Shown here: one piece after another, positions 38,090-58,255 of the stretch | Numbering within the stretch: position 1 is the stretch's first letter | Layout of the letters: every line of letters begins with the position of its first letter | From: Sulfuriroseicoccus oceanibius | GTDB taxonomy: Bacteria > Verrucomicrobiota > Verrucomicrobiia > Verrucomicrobiales > SLCJ01 | DNA length: 64,000 nucleotides | Direction: 5' to 3' | Assembly: GCF_010681825.2 (NCBI RefSeq) | Contig: NZ_CP066776.1 | Location: 2,418,001-2,482,000 of the forward strand | The notes under the pieces: generated by a model | Seen by the model: only the letters and a program-made list of their open reading frames with translations | Databases searched by the model: none | What the model was told of the DNA's origin: nothing | Program-made: the position numbers and the translations under genes

Positions 38090-39049
38090 TCAGGCTTCGG
38101 TCCACTCACCGAACTTGCGGTACTTCTCGTAGCGCTGGTTGAGCAATTCCTCGTCATCGAGCTTGGTGAGCTCCGCGATCTGTGCGGCAATGGCACCCTT
38201 CAACGCAGCAGCTGCGCTCTCTGGGTTTTGGTGCGCGCCACCCTTTGGCTCGTTGATCACTCCGTCGATCAAGCCAAGCTCGGCAAGATCAGGAGCGGCA
38301 ATCTTCATCGCCTCGGCAGCTTCGGGCGCGTGCTTGCGGTGCTTCCAGAGAATCGCAGCACATCCTTCAGGGCTGATCACCGAGTAGTATGCGTTTTCCA
38401 TCATCAACACACGGTCGGCAACACCGATACCCAGTGCACCACCCGATCCACCTTCACCAATCACGACAGCCACGATTGGAGTCTTGATCCGCATCATCTC
38501 ACGCAAGTTGAAAGCAATCGCTTCAGCGATGTTGCGCTCTTCAGCACCGATACCAGGGAAAGCACCCGGGGTGTCGATGAAGGCAACGATCGGCATATTG
38601 AACTTCTCAGCCATGCGCATCAGGCGCAGCGACTTGCGGTACCCTTCCGGGTGCGCGCTGCCGAAGTTGCGCAGCAGGTTCTCCTTGGTGTCGCGGCCTT
38701 TCTGATGTCCGAGCACCACACAGGCCATTCCATCCAAACGCGCAATGCCTCCAGGCATCGACTGATCGTCACCAATGTGACGGTCGCCGTGCAACTCGAG
38801 GAAGTCGTCGAAGCAATGGCCTACATAATCGAGCATGAACGGACGCTGGGTGTGGCGAGCGATCTGAACACGCTGCCATGGTGTGAGGTTGGCGTAAATC
38901 TCTTCTTTGGTCTCGATCAGCCGCGCACGCATCTCGTTGATCTGATCACTCAGATCGATATCGCTGCGCTGGGATTCGTCCAGAAGCTGGTGGAGCTTCT
39001 CTTCCAATGCCACAATCGGCTTTTCGAATTCAAGAATTTGATGGGTCAT
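38090..39049 (-). CDS. accA: Acetyl-CoA carboxylase carboxyltransferase, alpha subunit
   Basis: AccA and AccD transfer carboxyl from biotin to acetyl-CoA to make malonyl-CoA. The 319-residue protein has the family opening ILEFEKPIVALEEKLHQLLD, then RPFMLDYVGHCFDDFLELHG near 70, LGHQKGRDTKENLLRNFG near 112, the oxyanion-hole region FIDTPGAFPGIGAEERNIAE near 155 and VIGEGGSGGALGIGVADRVL near 196. The size is typical. accD is not in the window. The gene stands alone with a hairpin terminator after it. Confidence 0.97.
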   Translation of the reverse strand: MTHQILEFEKPIVALEEKLHQLLDESQRSDIDLSDQINEMRARLIETKEEIYANLTPWQRVQIARHTQRPFMLDYVGHCFDDFLELHGDRHIGDDQSMPGGIARLDGMACVVLGHQKGRDTKENLLRNFGSAHPEGYRKSLRLMRMAEKFNMPIVAFIDTPGAFPGIGAEERNIAEAIAFNLREMMRIKTPIVAVVIGEGGSGGALGIGVADRVLMMENAYYSVISPEGCAAILWKHRKHAPEAAEAMKIAAPDLAELGLIDGVINEPKGGAHQNPESAAAALKGAIAAQIAELTKLDDEELLNQRYEKYRKFGEWTEA

Positions 39050-39219
39050 GGATAGCAGGAATTGTTCACCAAAGGAAAGGAGGATCTGTCACCAACCTAA
39101 TGCCGGTTCAGCTTCCGGATGGTAGCCCTTAGTTTGTGGTGGGACTGCAGCAAAGCAATCACTTTTCGCTCGAAGCACCGTGAAATCTCGATCAACGCCC
39201 ACTGGATGAACATCAATCA

Positions 39220-39669
39220 TTACGCCGCCAACATCCCGCGCAGCAACGCCAGAAGCTCACGGTTCTCGCGACTCACACGCCTCCCGAACCAAGAACGCCG
39301 CGCCCCGGCTCGCGCGACGGCATCGGCCAAAAACACCAAGCCCTGCCGGTATTCCTCCACCTCATCCGAAGTCACAGGCAAGCGCTTCAACACCCCGCAA
39401 ACCACCAACAACTCCACAGACGGATCCAACACACGCCCCGCAAATGCCGCACGAATCATTTCATAGTGCTCCGCCGCATCCGACAACGCCGCGGCAAACA
39501 ACGGCGACGGCACCTGATCCGCTCCACGCAACACCGCCGAAAACGCCTGCTTCTGTCGCTCCGCAGCTTCCTGACCGGACGGCGCCACCAGCAACAAAAA
39601 GATGAGCACGGGAGCCGCCCTCAAGCGCTCCTGATCGGATTTGCTGATCTGTTTTGGATAATTGATCAT
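39220..39669 (-). CDS. Hypothetical protein
   Basis: The 149-residue protein (MINYPKQISKSDQERLRAAP) is not recognised. It is mostly helical, with one short hydrophobic run (APVLIFLLLVAPSG) near residues 19-32 and Arg/Ala/Glu-rich helices (RQKQAFSAVLRGADQVPSPL, EEYRQGLVFLADAVARAGAR). It could be a TerB-like or soluble all-helical protein, but I cannot assign it. It lies 170 bases upstream of accA on the same strand. Support is the intact start and stop, good codon usage and no competing frame. Confidence 0.55.
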   Translation of the reverse strand: MINYPKQISKSDQERLRAAPVLIFLLLVAPSGQEAAERQKQAFSAVLRGADQVPSPLFAAALSDAAEHYEMIRAAFAGRVLDPSVELLVVCGVLKRLPVTSDEVEEYRQGLVFLADAVARAGARRSWFGRRVSRENRELLALLRGMLAA

Positions 39670-39806
39670 CGTCTGTGGGCCGTTTTTAACGAATCTGGTA
39701 ATTCACGGGCGATCATCAAGAGATGATGAAAAAAGTAAAGCGAATGATTGATCGCCCCTGTAGCCAGCCAGTAGATAAGGGCGTCACGAATCCCCCCGAT
39801 TAAATT

Positions 39807-40073
39807 ATGAGCACTCCCCAGCAAGCAACCTCACGCCAGACTCCGGAACAAGCCTTCGGCCATGACTACCTGGAAATGCGGATCCGGCTGATTGAGATCG
39901 GTGCCATGCTCGACCGCCTCGACCGCGCACGCACCAGCCACCCGGACGCGCCGCAACTCACCGAAGACGACCGCATCGATCGCTGCCGTCAGGCGCTGGA
40001 AGTCATCATATCGGAGGCAGAGACTCCCAACAGGGCGGAACGCATCGCCTTGATCTTCTCCGATCTCGACTAA
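39807..40073 (+). CDS. Small hypothetical protein upstream of a TatD-like hydrolase
   Basis: The 88-residue, charged, helical protein (MSTPQQATSRQTPEQAFGHD, then LEMRIRLIEIGAMLDRLDRA and DDRIDRCRQALEVIISEAET) has no family I recognise. It has no signal or membrane segment. It lies 54 bases before the TatD-like gene on the same strand, so the two are likely co-transcribed. The acidic/basic pattern suggests a two- or three-helix bundle. Confidence 0.55.
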   Translation: MSTPQQATSRQTPEQAFGHDYLEMRIRLIEIGAMLDRLDRARTSHPDAPQLTEDDRIDRCRQALEVIISEAETPNRAERIALIFSDLD

Positions 40074-40127
40074 CCCCAGCCCGGACTCCATCCGCCCGCA
40101 ACCACCCCACCCCTCACCCAATCTCCC

Positions 40128-40964
40128 ATGTTCATCATTCAACCTCACTACCACGCGATTGCCCGAACCGCGCAGGACTACGAGCGCATGGCCATGTCTG
40201 GCGTTGTCGCCGTCGCCGAACCCGCCTTCTGGGCCGGTTTTGACCGCGACTACCCGGAAACCTTCCTCGACTACTTCAAGCAGATCACTGAATTCGAGCC
40301 AACGCGTGCCGCTCAATACGGGATCCGCCATTTCAGCTGGGTCGCGGTGAACCCGAAGGAAGCAGAAAACCCAGAGCTGACCGACGCCGTCTGCGCCGAG
40401 ATGCCAAAGTATTTCAAGAACAAGAACGTGCTCGGTGTCGGCGAGATCGGACTCCATAAATCCACACCGAACGAGATCGCTGGGTTTGAGCAACAAATCC
40501 AACTCGCTCTGGATCACGACCAGCTCATTCTTATCCACACCCCGCACCTCAACGACAAGCTCCACGGCACCAAGAAAACTCTCGAGATCCTCGAAAACTT
40601 CTCAGACCTCGATCGCAAACGCGTTTGGATCGACCACGTCGAGGAACACACCGTCAAGATGGTGCTCGATGCCGGCTATTGGGCTGGCATGACCCTCTAC
40701 CCACAAACCAAAATGACCGGCGAACGCGCCGCTGACATCCTTGAGATGTACGGCTGGGACCGCATGCTGGTGAACTCCTCGGCAGACTGGGGCCCGAGCG
40801 ACCCATTCACCCTGCAGGAATGCGTCATGGAGTGCCGGCGCCGCGGCCTCGACCGTCAGGAACTCCTCGACATCTTCCACAACAACCCATGCAGGTTCCT
40901 GTCCCAATGCCCAAATTGGGACATCGCGCCAATTAAGGTTGTTGATGACCCGCTGACCACGTAA
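40128..40964 (+). CDS. TatD/COG1099-like metal-dependent hydrolase
   Basis: The 278-residue protein is a TIM-barrel metal hydrolase of the amidohydrolase superfamily. It has the metal-binding PHYHAIARTAQDYERM near 5 in place of HxH, GVGEIGLHKSTPNEIAGF near 108 (the E of GEIGL), LILIHTPHLNDKLHGT near 132, IDHVEEHTVKMVLDAGYWAG near 170 and LVNSSADWGPSDPF near 213 (the D metal ligand). TatD proteins are DNases or other hydrolases; the group without HxH at the start resembles the archaeal-like COG1099. Substrate is unknown. It is preceded by a small unknown gene. Confidence 0.8.
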   Translation: MFIIQPHYHAIARTAQDYERMAMSGVVAVAEPAFWAGFDRDYPETFLDYFKQITEFEPTRAAQYGIRHFSWVAVNPKEAENPELTDAVCAEMPKYFKNKNVLGVGEIGLHKSTPNEIAGFEQQIQLALDHDQLILIHTPHLNDKLHGTKKTLEILENFSDLDRKRVWIDHVEEHTVKMVLDAGYWAGMTLYPQTKMTGERAADILEMYGWDRMLVNSSADWGPSDPFTLQECVMECRRRGLDRQELLDIFHNNPCRFLSQCPNWDIAPIKVVDDPLTT

Positions 40965-41025
40965 GTTGCCTATTAGCTGGCGCTGCGCGAGCTGCGCACG
41001 CCGGCATCTCCTCCATCCATTACAT

Positions 41026-41043
41026 TTGGCACGGTATCCGCTT
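41026..41043 (+). promoter_or_regulatory. Candidate sigma-54 (-24/-12) promoter of glnB
   Basis: TTGGCACG with GG at 41028-41029 is followed by GC at 41040-41041 after exactly ten bases, the sigma-54 GG-N10-GC rule; the -24 element TGGCAC is perfect, while the -12 element CCGCT is partly divergent from TTGCA. Transcription would start near 41053, 86 bases before glnB, a typical sigma-54 target. Confidence 0.5.
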
Positions 41044-41075
41044 ACCCCTAACTCAAGGCTTCACATCCGCCGTGA

Positions 41076-41486
<411 letters not shown>

Positions 41487-41522
41487 TTTAGGCTGGCCCG
41501 ATCCCATTTCTTTGGAGTGCGT

Positions 41523-41564
41523 ATCCTCCGCCACCCGATCGCCGGGCGGCGGAGGATTTTTTTT
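41523..41564 (+). terminator. Rho-independent terminator after glnB
   Basis: ATCCTCCGCC and GGCGGAGGAT pair as a stem of 10 bp and are followed by eight T residues. It lies 37 bases past glnB on the plus strand. Confidence 0.93.
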
Positions 41565-41646
41565 ATCGCCATCACCCCACAGATTTCAAAACGTCGAACC
41601 TCCTCACCGACGCTTGATTGCGCAGAACCCCAGCCCCACCCCGACC

Positions 41647-42867
41647 GTGACGACCAGCCGCCGCCAATTCATCACCACGTCCGCGCTCGCCGCAGCATCC
41701 GCTCTCGTCCCTGCCCCACTCACCGCTTTAGCCGCCCCCGCACGCCGCGGACCGGCTGAGTTCCGCGGCGGATGGGTCGCTTCCGTCTACAACCTGGACT
41801 GGCCGAGCCGTCCCGGGCTCTCACCAGCGGCGGCCAAAGCGGAACTGATCCGCCTCATCGACCGCATGCAGGCCCTTCACATGAATGCCATGATCTTTCA
41901 AGTGAGGCCGAATGGCGACGCACTCTACCGCTCGTCCATCGAGCCCTCCAGCCACTGGCTCACGGGATCCATGGGCGCACGCCTGAGCTGGGATCCTCTT
42001 GAAGTTGCGGTCGAAGAATGCCACCGCCGCGGCATGGAGCTCCACGCTTGGTTCAACCCGTTCCGTGCACTCTCGGGTTTGAAAAAGGCACCATCCCGCA
42101 AACACCTCAGCCGCAGACGGCCGGACTGGGTGCGCACCATGGGCAAACACATTTGGTTCGATCCCGCGGAGCCAGGCGTCCAAAACCACGCGCTGAAAGT
42201 CATCACCGATGTCGTCCGCCGCTACGACATCGACGGCGTCCACCTCGACGACTACTTCTACCCCTACCCGAAGAAGAAAGCCGGACGCCGTATCGAAGAA
42301 TTCCCAGACATGCACGCATTCCAGAAGAGCGGCATGACCAACCGGGACGCTTGGCGCCGAGCCAACATCAACCACTTCGTCAAGAACCTGTACCATCAAG
42401 TCCACGAAACACGCCAAAGCGTCAAAGTCGGCATCTCCCCGTTCGGGATCTGGCGCCCAGGCGTACCAGCCGGCACCAACGCCATGCTTGACGCCTACAA
42501 CGACTTGGCGGCGGACTCGCATTTCTGGCTCCGCCAAGGCTGGGTCGACTACATGAGCCCACAGCTCTACTGGGCTGACGGCGGTGAGCAATCCTTCTCC
42601 GCACTCCTTCAATGGTGGCAAAGCATCAATCCAAAAGGCCGCCACATCTGGCCTGGGATCGATATCACCGGCGAGCGCGGACACGCGACCTCGATGGTCT
42701 CGCGCCAGGTACGCATTACCCGCACCACCCGTCAGGCCCCGGCGCCCGGACAAGTCCTCTGGCGCACCGGCCAACTACTCGACTCGCGCAAGCACATTGC
42801 CCAGATGCTCCGCCGCGACCTGTACAATACCCCAGCCACCATTCCACCCTGCCCGTGGCTGGCGTGA
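41647..42867 (+). CDS. Tat-exported glycoside-hydrolase-like protein (GHL10/DUF187)
   Basis: The 406-residue protein starts at GTG 41647 with a twin-arginine signal (TTSRRQFITTSALAAASALV), so it is exported folded. The rest is the GHL10 (YddW/DUF187) TIM barrel, found in glycan-degrading loci: EFRGGWVASVYNLDWPSRPG, MNAMIFQVRPNGDALYRSSI, LHAWFNPFRALSGLKKAPSR, YDIDGVHLDDYFYPYPKKKA and KVGISPFGIWRPGVPAGTNA. The DGVHLDDYFYP segment is the likely acid site. The substrate may be a bacterial or plant glycan; this is unproven. The upstream in-frame reading overlaps the glnB terminator and is rejected. Confidence 0.88.
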   Translation: MTTSRRQFITTSALAAASALVPAPLTALAAPARRGPAEFRGGWVASVYNLDWPSRPGLSPAAAKAELIRLIDRMQALHMNAMIFQVRPNGDALYRSSIEPSSHWLTGSMGARLSWDPLEVAVEECHRRGMELHAWFNPFRALSGLKKAPSRKHLSRRRPDWVRTMGKHIWFDPAEPGVQNHALKVITDVVRRYDIDGVHLDDYFYPYPKKKAGRRIEEFPDMHAFQKSGMTNRDAWRRANINHFVKNLYHQVHETRQSVKVGISPFGIWRPGVPAGTNAMLDAYNDLAADSHFWLRQGWVDYMSPQLYWADGGEQSFSALLQWWQSINPKGRHIWPGIDITGERGHATSMVSRQVRITRTTRQAPAPGQVLWRTGQLLDSRKHIAQMLRRDLYNTPATIPPCPWLA

Positions 42868-43181
42868 AGGCGCTGCGCCTCCGATTGGGATATGGATAAC
42901 GATAAGGATAAAGACGCCTGCGGCTACCTACGCTTCTCGCACGAACGACGCCCAACAGAGCTTTCCCTGAAAGGGAAACGCAGACCAGCCCAGCGGTGAA
43001 GGGAGCCTCCGGCGACTTCACACTGCGGAAAGGCGACCTCCCTCTGGGGATTTCCGCCCGCACACAAAATTGGCCGAGCGGGCGTCGCCGTCGAACCCGC
43101 CCGATGGCCGCCCGATTGCCGCCGTCAAACCGCCGCCAAACCGCCGCCAAACCGCCGCCAGGCATCAAACAGCCTCCCGCA
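42868..43181. repeat. Intergenic spacer with palindromes and repeats
   Basis: No gene is seen in these 314 bases between the GHL10 gene and convergent khpB. The spacer has AGGCGCTGCGCCT, TTTCCCTGAAAGGGAAA (42963-42979) and an 11-bp tandem repeat. The second palindrome resembles the dispersed element at 33537 and 52300. Confidence 0.55.
43127..43159 (+). repeat. Tandem repeat, 11 bp x 3
   Basis: AAACCGCCGCC occurs three times in a row without change, 23 bases downstream of the khpB stop on the opposite strand. Such repeats may vary in number between strains. Confidence 0.85.
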
Positions 43182-43649
43182 TTAGCCCTGCTTCTTGCGG
43201 ATGGTAATCCGCTTCATGCGCGAGCGATCCTGTGGGCTCGTTGCCTCGACTTCTGGGAACTCTTTCAATGCTCCGTAAACGATCCGGCGGTGGTACGAGT
43301 TCAACGGGTTCAAAATCACCGGGCGCCCACCCGCCGCCACACGCGACGCCACCGCCTTCACCTTTTCCACCATCTCGCTTTCGCGCTGCTCGCGGTAGTG
43401 CCCAACATCCACGCGAACCCGCGGAGCATCCGGCAGCTTCTCCTGCAGCACGCGGTTCACCAGATACTGGATATCATCCAATCGGTCCCCCTTGTTGCCA
43501 ATCAGGATCGCGGAGTCCTCGGTTTCGATCTGCAAACCCGGCCCACGCTCATCGTTTTCTTCATGGATGGTAACAAAGAACCCGAGGGTACCGAGCATCG
43601 TGTCCAGGATCTCGCGGGCGGTCGTCAGTGCGGCAGCTTGGTCAGTCAT
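43182..43649 (-). CDS. khpB: KhpB/Jag RNA-binding protein (KH and R3H domains)
   Basis: KhpB (Jag, SpoIIIJ-associated) binds RNA with KhpA and affects envelope genes. The 155-residue protein has a KH-like first half (ILDTMLGTLGFFVTIHEEND, ILIGNKGDRLDDIQYLVNRV near 55) and a C-terminal R3H domain (VRVDVGHYREQRESEMVEKV, PVILNPLNSYHRRIVYGALK near 118 with R...H). The N-terminal Jag_N domain is absent. In many bacteria jag lies beside yidC; here it is about 19 kb away. Start MTDQAAALTT at 43649 is used rather than an upstream in-frame extension. Confidence 0.92.
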   Translation of the reverse strand: MTDQAAALTTAREILDTMLGTLGFFVTIHEENDERGPGLQIETEDSAILIGNKGDRLDDIQYLVNRVLQEKLPDAPRVRVDVGHYREQRESEMVEKVKAVASRVAAGGRPVILNPLNSYHRRIVYGALKEFPEVEATSPQDRSRMKRITIRKKQG

Positions 43650-43851
43650 AACAAAAAATTCATCGATTAATGATGCGTGGGCGAAACATGGATCCGCTCG
43701 CATTTCCGCGCAACCTCAACAAATCCCTACCTTCCGCGCAAATAGAAACGCCGCGCATCGTTCCCCACCCACACCACCAATCCTCACAATCGTCTACCGG
43801 ACCCATCGATCGCATTGCAATCGTTGCTCCATCGTCTACCTTGCGCCCGAC

Positions 43852-44973
43852 ATGAGCGCAGAAACATTGCCTGTAGAGCACGACGATCCAATCAACGCCC
43901 GCATTCTTGCCGTTTCCGAGGACAAGATCGGCGGGTTCACCGCGACCCCATTCCAAGACATCGCCGAACAATCCGGCGTGGATTTCGACACGGTGGTCAC
44001 CCGTATCCGCGCCATGCTGGAAGCCGGCGTGATCCGCCGCGTGCGCCAAACTCTCCTCGCCACCAAGCTCGCCCACGGCGCCCTCTGCGCCTGGAAGCTG
44101 CCTGACGACAAAGTCGATACCGCATTCGACTTCATGGCGAAAAACGATCCATTCTCCGGCCACGTAGTGATCCGCTCGACCGACCGCCAGATTTCCGGGT
44201 CGGACTATAAACTGTGGACCACCTTGAAAGTGCCACAAGGCGAGTCGCTCGAAGAACACGCCGACGTCCTCAAGCGCATCGTCGGTGCCGAGGACTACAT
44301 CCTGATGCCTGCCCACGGCGTTTTCGCCCTGGGTGTCGGCCACGTCCGCCGCAAATCACTCGAACTCGGCGCGAAATACGATGAGCCAGCCACCATGATG
44401 ACCACCAAAACCGTGGAGCTTTCCCCGGAACAGTGGGACGTCTTGCTGGCCCTGAAAGAAGAGCTCACCCTCGATGAAGTCGGACCAAACCCATGGGAAG
44501 GTCGTGCCAAGATCGCTGGTGTCTCGTTGGAGCGCTTCATCGAAGTCGCCAAGCAGCTCGACGAAATGAAAGTCATCGGCCGCTTCTCCACATTCCTCGA
44601 GCACGTCAAGCCATCGACCACCGGCAAGCGCGTGACGCGTTTCAATGGTCTCTTCCACTGGAAAGTTCCTAAGGGCATGGAAGAAAAAGCCGGCAGCGAA
44701 GTCGGACGCCACCTCATCATGACCCACTGCTACTGGCGCGAAGGCGGCCCACAGTTTGGCGGAGTCAATATCATGGGCGTTGTCCACGGCACGGAAAAAG
44801 ACCGCGTCCTCGAACACAAGGCAGCGATCGACAAACACCTCGAGGAAATCGGCATTCCGGTCGAATACACCAACGTCTTCTGGGGCGGCCGCTCGGAGAT
44901 CAAGCCATCCGAGATCTCGCCAAAGGTCTACCGCCAATGGCACGAGGAAAATGCGGAAACGACACTCGACTAA
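43852..44973 (+). CDS. Tandem AsnC/Lrp-like protein of the siroheme decarboxylase (AhbA/AhbB) type
   Basis: The 373-residue protein has two similar halves, each with a winged HTH-like and an AsnC-type ligand domain. In the first, FTATPFQDIAEQSGVDFDTV is the HTH and GVIRRVRQTLLATKLAHGAL the hinge region seen in AhbA/NirD-type decarboxylases, followed by CAWKLPDDKVDTAF. In the second, DEVGPNPWEGRAKIAGVSLE is the HTH and RVTRFNGLFHWKVPKGMEEK the matching hinge. AhbA and AhbB form a heterodimer that decarboxylates siroheme to didecarboxysiroheme, a step to haem or haem d1. Fusion of both halves in one chain would be consistent with this, but activity is not shown. No hem or nir gene is adjacent. 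Confidence 0.68.
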   Translation: MSAETLPVEHDDPINARILAVSEDKIGGFTATPFQDIAEQSGVDFDTVVTRIRAMLEAGVIRRVRQTLLATKLAHGALCAWKLPDDKVDTAFDFMAKNDPFSGHVVIRSTDRQISGSDYKLWTTLKVPQGESLEEHADVLKRIVGAEDYILMPAHGVFALGVGHVRRKSLELGAKYDEPATMMTTKTVELSPEQWDVLLALKEELTLDEVGPNPWEGRAKIAGVSLERFIEVAKQLDEMKVIGRFSTFLEHVKPSTTGKRVTRFNGLFHWKVPKGMEEKAGSEVGRHLIMTHCYWREGGPQFGGVNIMGVVHGTEKDRVLEHKAAIDKHLEEIGIPVEYTNVFWGGRSEIKPSEISPKVYRQWHEENAETTLD

Positions 44974-44998
44974 CCGCAAACCATCCCTCTAACGTATC

Positions 44999-45040
44999 GG
45001 CCGCCGCTGCACCTCCCGCAGCGGCGGCCGTTTCTTTTGT
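44999..45040 (+). terminator. Strong terminator after the AhbA/B-like gene
   Basis: GGCCGCCGCTGC and GCAGCGGCGGCC are a perfect 12-bp stem around a 7-nt loop, followed by GTTTCTTTTGT. It ends 8 bases before the next gene's ATG. Confidence 0.85.
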
Positions 45041-45047
45041 TCCCCCC

Positions 45048-45764
45048 ATGACCGCACCCGCTCTCGTCGAACTCAAATGTACCAACTGCGGATCCCAACT
45101 CGATCCCCAGAACATTTCGCCCCAACTGGCCGCCGCCCGTTGCCCGCACTGCAACTCGCTCTTCGCAATCCCGACCCACACGAGCGCTCCACCTCAGCCC
45201 CCTGAGCAACCGAAAATCCGTCCAAAAGCGCGCCAGCCAAAGAACATCAACGTCTCCACCCAACGCGGCGATCTAATTCTTGAGCGCCGTTGGTTCTCGC
45301 CTGCGATTCTCTTCTTTCTCTTCTTCGCGCTTTTCTGGACCGGTTTCTCGGTCTTTTGGGTAATCGGAGCGTCGGCAGTCGGCGGATTCTTCGGGCTCTT
45401 CGGCCTGCCTTTCGTTGCCATTGGAATCGGCATGCTCTACGCCGTGGCCGCAGGCATCATGAACAGCACCACCATCCAGGTAGGAGCCAGCGCTCTCAGC
45501 GTGAAACACGGCCCGCTCCCGTGGGCAGGAAACAAAAGCATTCCGCGCCACCAAATTGCCCAGATCTTCTGCCGCGAAGTCACCAGACAAACCAAGAACG
45601 GCAGCAACACCACCTACACGGTGGAGGTCGTCAGCACCGACAACCACCGCGAGCCATTGATCAAGAGCCTCAACCAAGAAGACGAGGCTCTCTACATCGA
45701 GCAACAACTAGAGACATTCCTCGGCATCAAGGACAGTCCGGTACGCGGCGAAATGGAGCGGTAA
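45048..45764 (+). CDS. Zinc-ribbon membrane protein
   Basis: The 238-residue protein starts MTAPALVELKCTNCGSQLDP. A zinc ribbon (CTNCGS and CPHCNS, about residues 11-37) is followed by a proline-rich linker, then two close membrane segments (about 85-105 ILFFLFFALFWTGFSVFWVI and 110-140 VGGFFGLFGLPFVAIGIGML), and a C-terminal cytosolic beta-rich domain (about 145-238). The zinc ribbon resembles the generic DUF zinc-ribbon proteins of verrucomicrobial genomes. Function unknown. The ATG lies just past a strong terminator, so it must have its own promoter or read-through. Confidence 0.75.
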   Translation: MTAPALVELKCTNCGSQLDPQNISPQLAAARCPHCNSLFAIPTHTSAPPQPPEQPKIRPKARQPKNINVSTQRGDLILERRWFSPAILFFLFFALFWTGFSVFWVIGASAVGGFFGLFGLPFVAIGIGMLYAVAAGIMNSTTIQVGASALSVKHGPLPWAGNKSIPRHQIAQIFCREVTRQTKNGSNTTYTVEVVSTDNHREPLIKSLNQEDEALYIEQQLETFLGIKDSPVRGEMER

Positions 45765-45852
45765 TCCCTTGATCCTCATAGCCCAAGGAGTCGAATCCAG
45801 AGAATCCTCAAAAAAGGGTTTTCATTCCTTCCGCTCCCCGTAAATTGGGCGC

Positions 45853-48147
45853 GTGAGTTATCAGGTTTTCGCACGTAAATATCGCCCCACTACATTCGCC
45901 GACGTCCTGGGCCAGGAGCACGTCGTACGCACACTCCGCAATGCCATTGAGCAGGACCGGATTGCCCAGGCTTACCTCTTCGCCGGACCACGGGGAACCG
46001 GGAAAACCTCGACCGCTCGTATCCTCGCCAAGGCTCTCAATTGCCCGGGCGGACCAAAGATCGACTTCGATCCAAACGACCCGGTCTGCATCGAAATCGC
46101 CGAAGGCCGGTCACTCGACGTGCTCGAAATCGACGGTGCCTCGAACAACAGCGTCGACCAAATCCGCGAACTGCGCGACACCGTCAAGTTCGCCCCTACC
46201 AGCGGACAGTATAAGATTTACTACATCGATGAGGTGCACATGCTCACCACCCAGGCCTTCAACGCGTTGCTCAAAACGCTGGAAGAGCCACCACCGCATG
46301 TGAAGTTCATCTTCGCTACCACGGAGCCGAACAAGGTTCTTCCGACCATCCTCAGCCGCTGCCAGCGCTTCGACCTGCGCCCGATCTCGGAAGCAATCAT
46401 CGCCAAGCACTTGCTCCACATCGCTCAAAACGAAGGAGTCGTCCTCGAGCCCAACGCGGCACAAGCGGTGGCAAAAGGAGCCGACGGCGGCATGCGCGAT
46501 GCCCAGTCGATGCTCGACCAGCTCGTCGCCTTCTGTGGCAACACCATCACCGAGCAAAACGTACTCGAAATCTTCGGCTTCTCGTCGCAGGAAACCATCG
46601 CCCGCCTCGCCCAGTGCCTGCTGGAGCGCCGCACCGCCGAAGCGCTGGAGCTCATCCACGCGGAACACACCGGCGGCCGCGATTTGGGCAGCCTCCTCTC
46701 GGAGCTCATCCAGTTCTTCCGCAACCTTCTCTTGGTCAAAGTTTCTCCGGCCAATGCGTTGCCGGACCTACTTCCAGAAACCCGTCAGCGGATCGATCAA
46801 CTGGTCAACCACACGACCACCGACCGCCTGCTCGAAGCCACTGACAACCTGGCCGAATACCAGAACAAAATGCGCTGGTCGGCGGACAAGCAGCTCCACT
46901 TCGAGCTCGCCGCGATCAAGACCATCCAGATTTTCGAGGAGTCGTCGATTGGCGATGTGGTTCGCATCCTGCGCGACGTGGCGGGCGGTGCTCCAGTACC
47001 AGCCCAGCCGGTTCCCGCTCCAGCACCGGCAACAATTCCAGCTCCAGCGGCAACTCCAGCCGCAGAGCCTGCTCTTGAAAGCGCGCCACAGCCGACAGCC
47101 CAGCCTGAGCCAGCTCCGCAGCCGGAGCCAACACCCGCTCCAGCCCCAGAGCCGACTCCTGAACGGGTTCCAACTCCAGCAGAAGAAGTCACCCCTGCAG
47201 TGCCAAGCCCACAAGCCGAGGCGGATGCGGAGCCCCCACAGCAACCAGCGGCGGAGGAAGCTCCAGTCGCATCTGCCGAGCCGACAGAAAGCCCTGAGCC
47301 AACTCTCGGTATCGAGCCGGCTCCGGAACCAGCACCTCTGCTGGAGCCAGAACCAACTCCAGCGCCCGAGCCTGCCGCATCGGAACACGTTCTCGAAGCA
47401 GAGCCGACACCTGCTGCAGAGCCAGAATCACAGCCAACTCCCGCGGAACCCATCGCCGAGACCACACCGGCACCAAGCGCCGACACACCGGCCGCCGGAG
47501 AACCCACGCCAACTCCGGACACCGACCTGCTCGGCCTCGATCTGACCGGCGACTTGCTCGCCGAGCTCGACAAACAAGCCGAACAACAGCAAGCCGCAGC
47601 AAAAGTCGAAGTCGCTCCGGTTGAAGACACCACCCCTGCTCCCGACGCGGAGCCCGCACCGGAAATGAACACCAACGAGGAAGTGCTCGCAGAAATCCTG
47701 CGCCGCCTCGACGCCCGGTCCGAGGGTATGGTCGTCGCCGCATTCGAAGGTGCGGAGGTCACGCAGTTCGGCCCGGAAGGCGTCACCGTTGCCTTCCCAG
47801 CCGAAGCGGAGTTTGAAATCGACACCGTCGTCCGCCCGAGCACAGCGCTGAAACAAGTCGTGCGCGAACTCAACTTTGGCGATACCCTGAAAATCGAACT
47901 CAGCGACGAGCTCCAAGCTCCGGAAGTCGACCTCAGCACACCAGACCTCAGCGACTTCATGCCTGAACGTCCGGCAAAAGAAGAACAGCCCGAGCCCGTC
48001 GCTGAAGAAGAACCACCTGCAGCAGACGAACCGGACCCGAATGAGCCGCTTTTGATCGCACAAATGCCAGGCTTCTACGAAGACCCGGCCATCGCCAAGC
48101 TCGCTGAAGAATTCGGCCTGCGCGTGGTCAAGGAAGCCAAAAAGTAA
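45853..48147 (+). CDS. dnaX: DNA polymerase III subunit gamma/tau
   Basis: DnaX is the clamp-loader ATPase of the replisome. The 764-residue protein starts at GTG with YQVFARKYRPTTFADVLGQE, has Walker A GPRGTGKTSTARILAKALNC near 47, the IDEVHMLTTQAFNALLKTLE Walker B region near 125 and the sensor SRCQRFDLRP near 172. The zinc site is unusual: only two of four cysteines (NC and VC) remain. A Pro/Ala/Glu-rich linker (about 380-560) leads to a C-terminal domain, and no clear gamma frameshift site is seen. ybaB follows 40 bases downstream. Confidence 0.96.
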   Translation: MSYQVFARKYRPTTFADVLGQEHVVRTLRNAIEQDRIAQAYLFAGPRGTGKTSTARILAKALNCPGGPKIDFDPNDPVCIEIAEGRSLDVLEIDGASNNSVDQIRELRDTVKFAPTSGQYKIYYIDEVHMLTTQAFNALLKTLEEPPPHVKFIFATTEPNKVLPTILSRCQRFDLRPISEAIIAKHLLHIAQNEGVVLEPNAAQAVAKGADGGMRDAQSMLDQLVAFCGNTITEQNVLEIFGFSSQETIARLAQCLLERRTAEALELIHAEHTGGRDLGSLLSELIQFFRNLLLVKVSPANALPDLLPETRQRIDQLVNHTTTDRLLEATDNLAEYQNKMRWSADKQLHFELAAIKTIQIFEESSIGDVVRILRDVAGGAPVPAQPVPAPAPATIPAPAATPAAEPALESAPQPTAQPEPAPQPEPTPAPAPEPTPERVPTPAEEVTPAVPSPQAEADAEPPQQPAAEEAPVASAEPTESPEPTLGIEPAPEPAPLLEPEPTPAPEPAASEHVLEAEPTPAAEPESQPTPAEPIAETTPAPSADTPAAGEPTPTPDTDLLGLDLTGDLLAELDKQAEQQQAAAKVEVAPVEDTTPAPDAEPAPEMNTNEEVLAEILRRLDARSEGMVVAAFEGAEVTQFGPEGVTVAFPAEAEFEIDTVVRPSTALKQVVRELNFGDTLKIELSDELQAPEVDLSTPDLSDFMPERPAKEEQPEPVAEEEPPAADEPDPNEPLLIAQMPGFYEDPAIAKLAEEFGLRVVKEAKK

Positions 48148-48187
48148 TCACGAATTCACAACCAACACTCACACCAAACTTACCATT

Positions 48188-48499
48188 ATGAACATTGCCA
48201 AGATGATGAAGCAGGCCCAGCAAATGCAAAAGCAGATGGGCGAAATGCAGGAGAAACTCGCTGCCGAGCAAGTGGAAGCCAGCGTCGGCGGTGGCAAAGT
48301 CACCGTAACCGCTACCGGCGGTGGCGACGTCGTCGCAATCAAGATCGACAAGTCGGTCGTCGATCCTGAAGACACCGAGTTCCTCGAGGACCTCATCCTT
48401 TCGGGCGTCCAGGCCGCCATCTCCAAGGGCCGCGAGCGCGCCGAAGGTGAAATGAAGAAGATTACCGGCGGCATGGGCCTTCCGGGCATGGGCTTCTAA
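48188..48499 (+). CDS. ybaB: YbaB/EbfC nucleoid-associated protein
   Basis: YbaB binds DNA as a dimer and shapes the nucleoid. The 103-residue protein has the helical start MNIAKMMKQAQQMQKQMGEM, a beta part VTVTATGGGDVVAIKIDKSV and a C-terminal helix DLILSGVQAAISKGRERAEG. It lies 40 bases after dnaX, the standard dnaX-ybaB order, but recR, which normally follows, is missing. The C-terminus ends GGMGLPGMGF, a Gly/Met-rich tail. Confidence 0.95.
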   Translation: MNIAKMMKQAQQMQKQMGEMQEKLAAEQVEASVGGGKVTVTATGGGDVVAIKIDKSVVDPEDTEFLEDLILSGVQAAISKGRERAEGEMKKITGGMGLPGMGF

Positions 48500-48541
48500 G
48501 CCAGACATTGGATCTCAACTATCGCAGCACCACACATCTTC

Positions 48542-49591
48542 ATGGCAGCAAATCTTCGCCAGCGGATCCCTGTGGTGTTGACCTTGGGAGCGTTTCTCCT
48601 CCACGGAGTCACGCTCCTTTTGTTTCACTTCCGCTGGGACAAACTCGCGCTGGCGACGGTCATTCCCGTCTGGGTCTACGTTCTGACCGCACTGGCCATG
48701 CTGGCCATCGCCGCGTTGATCAACCGCAACCGATGGACCGCAATTGTCGCGGTCATTTGGCTCGCCTCGGTTCCATTCCTCGTCGATGAATCCCGCGGCG
48801 TGCTACGTGCGGTCACCGGCAGCGAACGTCCGGCCGCCGAGCGCACCGTCACCACCGAATCCCCCGCCCCACTGCGCCTCGTCTCGCTCAATTGCCAGGC
48901 CCGCAACACTGCCGCGGCAAGGCAGGTCGCCCAATGGAATCCGGACATCGTCTTCTTGCAGGAGGCGCCCTTTTTCAACGACCTCAAAAAGATGGGCGAT
49001 GAATGGTTCGGAGGCGACGCCGTCTTCCTGCGCTCACGGGAATGCGCCATCATCGCCCGCGGCAAGCGCCTGCGCTCGGTTCCCGTCAGCCCCGGACGCA
49101 CTCCTGCGTCACCTCGCGGGATCGTCGCCCAACTTGAGCTGCTCGACGGGCGAGTGATCGAACTCGTCAACGTCCACCTCGACCACGCCACCACCAAGCT
49201 CTCGCTCTGGTCACGCGAAACCTGGCGCCAACACGCGACCAACCGCCGCAACCGACGCCACTCGCTCTATTTTATCCTGCAACACCGGCACCTCATTCCC
49301 TCGGTAGACGGCGTTGACCATACGGATCACAACCCATTGCCATCCATTGTCGCGGGCGACTTCAATGCCCCAGCCGGAGACGCCGCCACATCTCCGCTGC
49401 GTACCACTCACACCGACGCATGGCAAACGGCCGGCGTCGGCTGGGGTAACACCTACCCGGCCCACCTCCCCGTTCACCGCATAGACCAGGTATGGACCAA
49501 TGCCAAGATCACTCCGCTGACCATGGCTTCCGTTCAAGTCCCCGGTACCGACCACCGCATGGTGATTTGCGATTTCAACACAGCACCGTAA
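48542..49591 (+). CDS. Membrane-anchored endonuclease/exonuclease/phosphatase-family protein
   Basis: The 349-residue protein has three predicted membrane segments at the start (about 10-30, 36-58, 63-82: VVLTLGAFLLHGVTLLLFHF, VIPVWVYVLTALAMLAIAAL, WTAIVAVIWLASVPFLV). An EEP fold follows: LRLVSLNCQARNTAAARQVA, PDIVFLQEAPFFNDL, LVNVHLDHATTKLS, IVAGDFNAPAGDAATS and PGTDHRMVICDF. This layout is like the YafD-type proteins. It is the second EEP gene of the window. It lies 42 bases after ybaB and 27 before the AsmA-like gene. Confidence 0.86.
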   Translation: MAANLRQRIPVVLTLGAFLLHGVTLLLFHFRWDKLALATVIPVWVYVLTALAMLAIAALINRNRWTAIVAVIWLASVPFLVDESRGVLRAVTGSERPAAERTVTTESPAPLRLVSLNCQARNTAAARQVAQWNPDIVFLQEAPFFNDLKKMGDEWFGGDAVFLRSRECAIIARGKRLRSVPVSPGRTPASPRGIVAQLELLDGRVIELVNVHLDHATTKLSLWSRETWRQHATNRRNRRHSLYFILQHRHLIPSVDGVDHTDHNPLPSIVAGDFNAPAGDAATSPLRTTHTDAWQTAGVGWGNTYPAHLPVHRIDQVWTNAKITPLTMASVQVPGTDHRMVICDFNTAP

Positions 49592-49618
49592 CCTGAAGTC
49601 CCACCCTCGTTTTACCGC

Positions 49619-52159
49619 ATGCCCGTCAGCTCGCTCAGATGGATCAAACGCGTCCTCTCCATGGTTGCGGTTTTGTTGCTGCTCTTCGGCATCTGGGCCG
49701 GCGTCTACGGAGCTAGCAAAGGCCTGACAAAGAAGTGGCGTGGCATGGTGCAGGAGGAATTCCACCGTCACGGGATCTCGGTGTCGCTACGCCGCCTCAC
49801 GCTCGACCCCTTCCACGGCCTCGTCGCCAAAGACGTGCGCTTCTACCACAAGGATAACGATGAAGCGTTGATCGCATCGATGGACCGCCTGGCACTCGAC
49901 GTCAGCCTCATTGCCCTCGCTCGCGATGAGCTCTTCCTCAACCACATCGAGGTCACCGAGGCTCAAATCACCATCCCCCTCACCCCCAAGCGCCAACGAT
50001 CCAAGAAACCGTCGGAGGACGGCAAGGACGAACTCCGCATCACCGGCTTCAACGGCCGCATCCACCTGGACAACCACCGCATCTCGGTCACCAATGCGGA
50101 AGGTGAGGCGCTCGGCATCAAATTTCTCCTCAATGGAGAGTTCCTCCATCAGGACGCTAATGACGACGGCATCCCGGACATCGCCTTGACCACAGACGGA
50201 GGAATCCAGACGCCCCCGGATTCATCGGAAACCACCAACCTACCCGAGCCGGGCTCTGACCAGTGGAATGAGTCGATCAATACCGCCCTCAGCCGCCTGC
50301 AAAAATCCGTCAACCTACTGCGAGAACTCGAGTTCCCAGACGGCTCACCACGCCTCGTCATCAACACAAAAGCCGAGCTCGACGCCCTGGAAGAAGCCAC
50401 AGTCGACTTCCAACTCAATGCCCCCGCCGTTCACTGGCGCAACGCAACGCTCAACGATTTGGACATTCAAGCCACCTACGTCGATGGAGTCGCCTCGGTC
50501 AGCCGCTGCACCTACCGCGACACGGACGGCGAGTTCGACGGCGAGCTCGAGTTTGTCCGCGCTACCAAACGCCTCCGCTTCAGCCTGCGCAGCCAGACGA
50601 AGCTGTGGGACCTCATCACGTCCGCAGCACCTGACCTCGCCAACAATTACGTCTCGTGGAAGGACTCCCCCCTGCTCGAACTCGCCGGTGAACTGGATTG
50701 CGCCCAACCCATCACGCCAGCCAACCTCCCTGGGCAGTTCGAAGGTCTAATCGCCTGCGGCAAAGTCCGTATCTGCGAGGTCCCGTTCGACTACGTCTCA
50801 TTCCACTTCGCCGGTGAGGGCACCACAACCTTTGCCAGATCGATCAAACTGCGCCATGCATCCGGATTAATTGAAGGCGACTTCTTGCGTGAGGACGACC
50901 GCTTCAAAGCGCGCGCCGTGGTCACTGCCCACCCGGAAGAGCTTACCTGCTTCGCCTTCGGTAGCCGCGGTGTGGAGCGGTTCCTCAAACGCTTCGACTG
51001 CACGCGCTCGTCCAGAGTCACCGGCAAGCTCACTGGCAGCGGGAAGTTCGATGACATCGGCACGTGGGATCTGCAGGCCGCCGGCAATTTCGAGGACGTT
51101 CGGTTCAACGAAACCTCGGTGAGCAAAGCGTCGCTTCATTGGCAGTTCCTCAACCGCGAGCACATCATCACGCAACCATCCGTTCGCTTCGCCGAGGAAG
51201 GAACGGTCACCGCCGGACGCATCGTCCACAAACCATCCCTCAGCCTAACCGAGGTGACCGACCTCAAAGGAACTGTCCGCCCGGTCACCCTGCTCGGCTT
51301 GGTAGCACCGGACGCCGCCCACATCCTCGGCTGCTACGAGTTCTCCCAGCCACCGAAGGTCACGCTCGACGGCGTCATCGCCAGCGGACTCGGCAGACTC
51401 AACAACTTCCAAGCCACCATCACGACTCCGGGCACCGCCTTCATCCCCGTCTGCGGCACGCCGCTCCCGCTGAAAGCAGCCAACACCCAGCTCCACATGG
51501 TCGGCAACGTGCTCGATATCCCGACAATCAAGGGCACCCTGCTCGGCGGCCCGCTCCAGGCCAACCTCACCGTAGACTTCGCATCAGAGGCCACCGGCAT
51601 GAAAGGCGGAGTCAAAGTCCGCAATGTCGACTTCTCAAAACTCACCAACCTCTATCGAGACACCCCGGCCAAGGACTCGGCTGAAGCAGACGGTAGTGAA
51701 GGCCAACTCACCGGACACATCGAATTCTCATGCGACGCCGGAGACCCGCGCTCCCTCAATGGCGAAGGCGTGGCTGCCATCCTCAATGGCAATATCTTCT
51801 CACTCGCTCTCTTCGGGCCGCTCTCGCCACTGGTCGAGGCCGCCCTCCCCGAGGCGGGCGTTGGTTATTCAGTAGCCCGCGAAGCCACAGCCAACTTCAC
51901 CATCAAGGATGGCGTCTTTAAAACCGACGACTTCGAAGCGCTCACCCCCGCGTTCCGCATGATGGTGAAAGGGACGGTCGATTGCGCCACCCAGCGCCTC
52001 GACATGAATGCCCGCCTCAACGCCCGCGGCGTCGCCAAGGTCGCTACCATTCTCTTCAGCTACATCTTCGAGTTCAAAGCCCGCGGCACCATCGACGATC
52101 CAAAGTGGAAAGCTCTCCACTTCACCAAGCAGGAACAAGCCCAGCCGCTGGAAGATTGA
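49619..52159 (+). CDS. AsmA-like envelope protein
   Basis: The 846-residue protein has an N-terminal membrane anchor (VLSMVAVLLLLFGIWAGVYG, about 12-32) and a long periplasmic beta-rich region of the AsmA/TamB-like superfamily: GISVSLRRLTLDPFHGLVAK near 52, DGKDELRITGFNGRIHLDNH near 135 and a C-terminal AsmA-type segment KMKGGVKVRNVDFSKLTNLY-like near 660, then GVAAILNGNIFSLALFGPLS near 715. AsmA-like proteins form bridges that carry phospholipid to the outer membrane. Family assignment is by overall pattern and is moderate. Start ATG 49619. Confidence 0.75.
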   Translation: MPVSSLRWIKRVLSMVAVLLLLFGIWAGVYGASKGLTKKWRGMVQEEFHRHGISVSLRRLTLDPFHGLVAKDVRFYHKDNDEALIASMDRLALDVSLIALARDELFLNHIEVTEAQITIPLTPKRQRSKKPSEDGKDELRITGFNGRIHLDNHRISVTNAEGEALGIKFLLNGEFLHQDANDDGIPDIALTTDGGIQTPPDSSETTNLPEPGSDQWNESINTALSRLQKSVNLLRELEFPDGSPRLVINTKAELDALEEATVDFQLNAPAVHWRNATLNDLDIQATYVDGVASVSRCTYRDTDGEFDGELEFVRATKRLRFSLRSQTKLWDLITSAAPDLANNYVSWKDSPLLELAGELDCAQPITPANLPGQFEGLIACGKVRICEVPFDYVSFHFAGEGTTTFARSIKLRHASGLIEGDFLREDDRFKARAVVTAHPEELTCFAFGSRGVERFLKRFDCTRSSRVTGKLTGSGKFDDIGTWDLQAAGNFEDVRFNETSVSKASLHWQFLNREHIITQPSVRFAEEGTVTAGRIVHKPSLSLTEVTDLKGTVRPVTLLGLVAPDAAHILGCYEFSQPPKVTLDGVIASGLGRLNNFQATITTPGTAFIPVCGTPLPLKAANTQLHMVGNVLDIPTIKGTLLGGPLQANLTVDFASEATGMKGGVKVRNVDFSKLTNLYRDTPAKDSAEADGSEGQLTGHIEFSCDAGDPRSLNGEGVAAILNGNIFSLALFGPLSPLVEAALPEAGVGYSVAREATANFTIKDGVFKTDDFEALTPAFRMMVKGTVDCATQRLDMNARLNARGVAKVATILFSYIFEFKARGTIDDPKWKALHFTKQEQAQPLED

Positions 52160-57900: not shown

Positions 57901-58255
57901 GGGGGCGTTCTGGTTTCGACTGATGATTAGACGGGTGGGTTGCATGTCGAGGTTGATCGGCTGGCCTCGTAAAAAGCCGCTCAAAAAAATTAATTGCAGA
58001 TTCCAACGAATACGCAATGGCTGCTTAATTGACAGTCAACGTCCGCTTGCCAACGCCTGCTAGGTGAGCCGACGACAAATAGCAGGCTGATTTCAACGCC
58101 GCGCACTCCGGCTGCGAAATGAGATCTAATGAGTGATCGGGATCAGCAAACCGCCGACCGGATAGCGCATCCCTAAATTCTCCGGACGGCTAAACATGTA
58201 GATGCTCACTTTGAAGATCATCAGGACAGGGGTTCGACTCCCCTCGCCTCCACCA
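57901..58255 (+). ncRNA. ssrA: Transfer-messenger RNA (tmRNA)
   Basis: tmRNA rescues stalled ribosomes and tags the unfinished protein. The 355-nt gene has the classical ends: GGGGGCG at 57901 pairs with CGCCTCC before an encoded ACCA, with the alanine-identity G-U at the third pair, and the D-arm-like TGGTTTCGAC and T arm ACAGGGGTTCGACTCCCCT are present. The tag frame is 57998-58030: GCA resume codon then ADSNEYAMAA and TAA, much like the E. coli ANDENYALAA. A single chain, not two-piece. A strong terminator follows 25 bases downstream. Confidence 0.96.

Follow-up and report, generated by a model that had tools for sequence, protein, structure and literature searches.

The closest known relatives of the gene studied here are the decarboxylases of the alternative haem and haem d1 routes. 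NirDL of Hydrogenobacter thermophilus (structures 4ch7 and 4czc) carries two AsnC-like halves in one chain, and AhbA and AhbB of Desulfovibrio desulfuricans (4czd, 4un1) are two separate chains. As described in PMC4145669, an HXYXR motif facing the cavity is common to AhbA and AhbB, the iron is coordinated by H115 of AhbA, and changing R102 of AhbB to alanine gives an inactive complex. For Haloferax volcanii, PMC5746218 and PMC8305020 describe a route with a CbiX-type chelatase, a sirohaem decarboxylase and ahbC (PMC8305020), with ChdC (PitA) acting aerobically and AhbD anaerobically, and with no uroD or cpfC; the aerobic supply of coproheme is left open by the authors (PMC5746218). In other papers, the AHB pathway is termed archaea-specific (PMC8529089) and the sirohaem-dependent route is confined to archaea and some sulfate reducers (the 2024 review PMC10991733).

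We analysed a 64,000-nucleotide window of the Sulfuriroseicoccus oceanibius genome, in whose coordinates all positions are given unless a contig is named. A gene on the plus strand (43852..44973) starts with ATG and encodes, in 373 aa plus stop, a single-chain AhbA/AhbB-like protein of the NirDL fold (P0001), a probable sirohaem decarboxylase. A longer in-frame ORF begins with TTG at 43492; the best orthologues nevertheless align from residues 1 to 5 of P0001. Judged by sequence, both halves are AsnC-like, since Pfam places AsnC_trans_reg2 on two stretches (71.2 bits) and also finds NirdL-like_HTH (36.7 bits), each above cut-off. The tandem AhbA/AhbB architecture proposed in a preliminary description of this DNA is thus borne out, with an AhbA-like half (residues 30-162; 43939..44337, plus strand) made of an HTH and an AsnC-like ligand domain, matching AsnC_trans_reg2 and NirdL-like_HTH, and an AhbB-like half (residues 211-330; 44482..44841, plus strand). 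P0001 misses both NCBIfam equivalog cut-offs, scoring 59.6 bits for AhbA in the first half (NF040708, cut-off 140) and 94.8 bits for AhbB in the second (NF040707, cut-off 125), as do all four scanned proteins of its type (P0001 and its orthologues in G036, G033 and G105). Its score for the LrpA family is 19 bits, against a cut-off of 250. The IRR hinge claimed for both halves is there in the first (residues 61-63), but the second has IGR (242-244).

An AlphaFold model of P0001, built from 17 orthologues (pLDDT 91.3, pTM 0.85), is by far most similar to NirDL, with a Z of 25.7 for 4ch7 (304 residues, rmsd 4.1) and 25.1 for 4czc, each over 300 or more residues. The next-best structure is the AhbB chain 4czd_B (Z 9.7); all others reach 9.3 or less, as do Lrp-type structures, the full-length ones of which stay at 8.8 or less. 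Foldseek matched the model to 4ch7 with an E of 5.8e-21, and a profile search of solved structures returned three distinct sequences at E <= 0.01, namely those of 4ch7/4czc and 4czd/4un1. As modelled, P0001 has the NirDL fold along its whole chain, at about 20% identity to NirDL, and is a member of the AsnC/NirDL-fold sirohaem decarboxylase superfamily, its predicted fold and sequence being closer to that family than to Lrp regulators. The better match to a pure Lrp-type family against which the preliminary description had cautioned was therefore not seen.

Motif conservation was followed in 36 orthologues aligned from DNA, taken from the 57 matching class genomes. The second-half motif HCYWR (residues 292-296; 44725..44739, plus strand) is an intact HxYxR that aligns with that of NirDL, and its H292, Y294 and R296 are the counterparts of AhbB H98, Y100 and R102 as numbered in PMC4145669. 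In the first half, the counterpart HVVIR (residues 104-108; 44161..44175, plus strand) has Val in place of Tyr. H104, R108, H292, Y294 and R296 show no variation in the 36 orthologues, so the absence of sirohaem-binding residues considered earlier is not seen: each of the two motifs retains its His and Arg throughout. The first-half Tyr is found in 0/36, its place being taken by V or, in L050, by A (by eye). The P0001 type therefore does not have HxYxR in both halves, the first keeping only H and R, whereas the 16 canonical fused AhbAB proteins in the same alignment do (by eye). A family-specific motif, VGHVRR (residues 162-167; 44335..44352, plus strand), follows the first ligand domain, and its V162, G163, H164, R166 and R167 are invariant in the 36 orthologues. 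P0001 thus differs from NirDL both in the missing first-half Tyr and in this extra conserved VGHxRR segment.

A search of the phylum found matches to P0001 in 78 of 387 genomes. Fifty-seven of these, the window's own genome counted, belong to the same order or class and match at E <= 1e-69, which argues that the ORF is not a chance one; the other 21, outside the class, are weak (E 1.9e-12 to 5e-4). Sixteen proteins, fifteen from the weak matches and the other an additional one of G215, were aligned as canonical fused AhbAB; the set leaves out G081 (short ORF only) and five further weak-match genomes. In a tree, the P0001 type and the canonical fused AhbAB form separate clades with 100/100 support and long branches; because these branches were flagged, the placement of L036 and L046 relative to P0001 is unsure. 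The canonical proteins of L034 (G273) and L035 (G139) are likewise fused, with two halves, and belong to haem synthesis by context. Two canonical fusions, L034 and L036 (G215), score above both equivalog cut-offs that P0001 misses. The row of genes around L035 (G139) reads ccsA-like, hemA, ahbC, ahbD, ahbAB, sirC, hemC, hemB, hemL (by eye; ahbC, ahbD and sirC by search), and L034 shows the same set, with ccsA and hemA not in view. Since fused AhbAB stands among ahb and hem genes at these two loci, a single-chain AhbAB is not in itself unusual. The earlier premise that AhbA and AhbB are usually separate or pairwise fused is weak, given these two other Verrucomicrobiota and the one-chain NirDL (4ch7).

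Genomes carrying the P0001 type span 0.9 to 8.6 Mb. A scan of named genomes yielded at least 512 relatives, the best 80 of which all carry Verrucomicrobiota names except one 'Bacterium', and a plasmid search gave a single distant match, in Ruegeria pomeroyi (24% identity). In G220 (C1:1693185-1694277) the orthologue is split across two overlapping matches in different frames and may therefore be frameshifted or pseudogenised.

Linkage of the gene to haem genes is the exception. Ten ORFs scanned from 38093 to 52156 include AccA, TatD-like, P-II, GHL10, KH/R3H (just under both cut-offs), DnaX, YbaB, an endonuclease/exonuclease/phosphatase-family protein, a YhdP-like protein (under its cut-off) and one matchless frame. 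No haem gene was found among these ten by family scan, as had been noted for the adjacent genes; the genome has its haem-pathway genes at other sites. We also inspected 20-kb segments at 21 loci of the P0001-type gene (own included), 20 of HemQ and 20 of cobA (three being hemE-positive controls), and saw by eye no conserved haem partner except a hemA-hemC-cobA/hemD-ccsA-like cluster. Among the best 80 named loci of the at least 512 relatives (3-21 kb each), HemQ is nearby in 5 and CobA-HemD in 4. Unlike for NirDL, no haem d1 context was seen for the P0001 type, in gene searches covering hemE, hemH, HemQ, ahbC, CobA, SirC, CbiX, NIR_SIR and COX1. The window also contains a tmRNA gene (57901-58255) with the tag peptide ADSNEYAMAA.

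The preliminary description had pointed to the rest of the genome, and there the haem genes present and missing are informative. The S. oceanibius genome (G000; a single 3.5-Mb contig, 95.5% complete) has HemA, HemC and CobA-HemD in one cluster (family-scanned), HemQ (266 bits, above the NF008913 cut-off of 253), three COX1 matches and a tandem CbiX protein; hemE, hemH and SirC were not found in it. An ahbC-like gene (P0003; NirJ1 431 of 650 bits, AhbC 405 of 650) adjoins an ahbD-like gene (P0002; AhbD TIGR04545 312 of 500), and acetate kinase and phosphotransacetylase-like genes lie 3' of the pair (by eye). With both of these under the ahb cut-offs and SirC not found, the genome is without the complete canonical Ahb set (CobA, SirC, SirB, AhbAB, AhbC, AhbD). 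The ahbD-like protein (G000:C1:1339400-1341605) fits TIGR04053 (429 bits, cut-off 395), a radical SAM/SPASM family from whose model name no function can be read; since a radical SAM match adjoins the ahbC-like gene in 13/13 class genomes that have one, a haem role is suggested for it.

Evidence on function comes from 47 class genomes, of which 31 carry the P0001-type gene and 16 do not. While hemE is present in 1/31 carriers and 14/16 non-carriers, and hemH equally in 1/31 and 14/16, coproheme decarboxylase (HemQ/ChdC) is found in 24/31 carriers and 0/16 non-carriers, and an ahbC-like gene in 11/31 and 2/16, contrasts for which Fisher values overstate independence because the genomes are related and hand-picked. 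The ahbC-like genes score 394 bits or more, against 93 or less in every other class genome, and in all 13 cases the gene is adjoined by another radical SAM match (family-typed in G000 only). A protoporphyrin or coproporphyrin route (HemE with HemH/CpfC) was not found in 30 of the 31 carriers. The seven HemQ-less carriers all belong to genus g2 (Akkermansia-like), and all have the ahbC/ahbD-like pair and none a COX1 match; HemQ and the pair occur together in four genomes (G000, G215, G234 and G313). Three genomes are exceptions. G013 has the P0001-type gene, HemQ, hemE and hemH, and G030 and G301 have the ahbC/ahbD-like pair with no detected orthologue and no hemE or hemH; in G030, the orthologue position predicted by synteny with G033 falls past the contig end. 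G378 belongs to a family (f2) with many carriers; it has neither the P0001-type gene nor HemQ but does have hemE and hemH, as if the pathway had been swapped. Among the related genomes compared, the P0001-type gene thus appears to replace the usual haem-making genes. This near mutual exclusion with hemE/hemH, together with the pairing with HemQ or the ahbC/ahbD-like pair, points to a role in haem synthesis, which narrows a choice that the preliminary description had left open between synthesis, sensing and regulation. A patchy hemH also fits the four Verrucomicrobia ferrochelatases given in PMC8529089, all from Opitutaceae and Puniceicoccaceae.

Sequence and modelled fold, set beside this distribution, make it probable that P0001 is a diverged one-chain sirohaem decarboxylase in a hybrid sirohaem-coproheme-haem route. 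Counted against this are the sub-cut-off equivalog scores, the lost first-half Tyr, the rare haem linkage, the SirC and ahbC-like gaps described below, and the exceptions G013, G030 and G301. With its AsnC-style HTH domains, P0001 might instead be an Lrp-like DNA-binding regulator of haem genes that keeps its ligand pocket as a haem or sirohaem sensor, and a NirL homologue is cited in PMC4145669 as binding DNA; we think this unlikely, as the nearest folds are enzymes by a wide margin, the motif His and Arg are conserved in 36/36, and tracking of hemE/hemH absence is expected of a pathway enzyme more than of a regulator. Decarboxylation for haem d1, serving nitrite reductase in the manner of NirDL, is, on the genes compared, very improbable even though NirDL is the best structural match: the gene is found in genomes of 0.9 to 8.6 Mb and tracks hemE, hemH and HemQ, and G215 has a separate canonical AhbA/AhbB fusion (L036 9560-10447) besides its diverged P0001-type protein. 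We rejected a pure Lrp-type regulator because of fold, family scores and gene distribution.

As modelled, each half of P0001 contributes an AsnC-like HTH and a ligand domain, and the two ligand domains form one barrel, as in NirDL. The barrel is predicted to hold a tetrapyrrole, with the invariant His and Arg of both halves lining the pocket for binding and catalysis. Acting between CbiX and coproheme, the enzyme would decarboxylate sirohaem at its C12 and C18 acetates, and the presumed product, didecarboxysirohaem, would feed the synthesis of haem rather than haem d1. In genus g2, where HemQ and COX1 are missing, the adjacent ahbC-like/ahbD-like radical SAM pair could complete the route; in carriers with a haem-copper oxidase, HemQ/ChdC would take coproheme to haem, and the window's own genome would have both branches. 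This scheme resembles that of H. volcanii, except that ahbC is described there (PMC8305020) and none was detected in 20/31 carriers here (19 and G013). Much of a bacterial class, from haem-copper-oxidase members to Akkermansia-like ones, appears to depend on the sirohaem route.

The 19 carriers just mentioned lack hemE, hemH and the ahbC/ahbD-like pair, and all 19 have HemQ and COX1 (haem-copper oxidase). Four of them (G036, G057, G166 and G280) also have no NIR_SIR (sulfite/nitrite reductase) match. G036 and G057 are 0.9-Mb genomes with no AhbC candidate at all, which retain the P0001-type gene, CobA (a 504-508-codon frame), tandem CbiX, HemQ and a haem-copper oxidase, the COX cluster of G036 standing with cytochrome c, Rieske and cytochrome b-like genes (by eye). 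As they have no sulfite or nitrite reductase match, no other sirohaem user is evident that their CobA and CbiX would supply. Across the class genomes compared, an ahbC-like gene and the adjacent radical SAM gene come as a pair or are both missing, which suggests an anaerobic module set against an aerobic one, HemQ with an unrecognised partner. Judging from what is absent, the AhbC step, from didecarboxysirohaem to coproheme, has no known enzyme in these 19 of the 24 HemQ-positive genomes and must there fall to some unrecognised factor. We tentatively propose, as possible rather than probable, that haem-copper-oxidase Verrucomicrobiae make haem from sirohaem without AhbC, the diverged fused decarboxylase and some unrecognised enzyme that depends on oxygen (or a broader activity of the decarboxylase or of HemQ) giving coproheme, from which HemQ makes haem. 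Such a route, if real, would add a fourth wiring to bacterial haem synthesis, one kept even in 0.9-Mb genomes.

The same 19 genomes invite a reading with a different substrate, in which the CbiX-type chelatase puts iron into uroporphyrin III, P0001 removes all four acetates to give coproheme, and HemQ makes haem, AhbC and SirC being unneeded. That would account together for the failure to find HemE, HemH, AhbC and SirC in them, and the NirDL pocket can hold iron-uroporphyrin III, since NirDL was crystallised with an analogue of it (4czc). To our knowledge, turnover of iron-uroporphyrin III by NirDL has not been reported. CobA is retained in the reduced G036 and G057 genomes despite the missing NIR_SIR match, however, and proteins of the same clade are found in genus g2, whose genomes carry ahbC/ahbD-like genes, so that we hold this reading to be improbable. 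SirC says little either way: TIGR01470 (SirC/precorrin-2 dehydrogenase) passes its cut-off in 0/47 class genomes, carriers or not, and is thus unmatched too in hemE-positive ones with sulfite/nitrite reductases, leaving a further step, the formation of sirohydrochlorin, without a recognised enzyme throughout the set. Sulfite/nitrite reductases are common in the 47. CobA is matched in 51/51 genomes (above cut-off in 50), and two CbiX matches occur in 22 of the 24 HemQ-positive genomes (G354 has one, G237 none), a pattern that is not specific, as it recurs in 3/14 hemE-positive non-carriers (G378, G018 and G099).

For the sirohaem decarboxylase reading, the AhbC gap means that a defined enzyme is missing from genomes under 1 Mb, which makes the question directly testable. 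By eye, neither the neighbourhood of CbiX nor that of the radical SAM pair showed anything conserved that might replace AhbC. As a changed enzyme filling the gap, HemQ itself was rejected: in alignment with solved HemQ, its Tyr-Lys and His regions, which we take to be the functional ones, look canonical. Among the matches listed in the open-licence literature, by title or start of abstract, no paper assigns a P0001-type protein or describes an AhbC-less sirohaem route. The Xiphinematobacter genome paper reports hemE, hemD, hemY and hemH missing and suspects diverged analogues (PMC4607532); if G036 and G057 are that organism, as seems likely to us, the P0001-type gene, HemQ and CobA-HemD would be a concrete candidate answer.

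The HemA-like glutamyl-tRNA reductase of the window's own genome (L178 11341-12378; G000:C1 about 2625840-2626877) has 345 aa and matches positions 2-328 of a 416-position model, so that its C-terminal part appears to be missing; three further class HemA ORFs have 341-371 aa. The tandem CbiX-type chelatase (L294 1372-2886; G000:C1 about 3031997-3033511), of 504 aa, carries a C-terminal extension, against 271-276 aa in G036 and G057, and in NCBIfam it scores best against PRK02395 'hypothetical protein' models, under their cut-offs.
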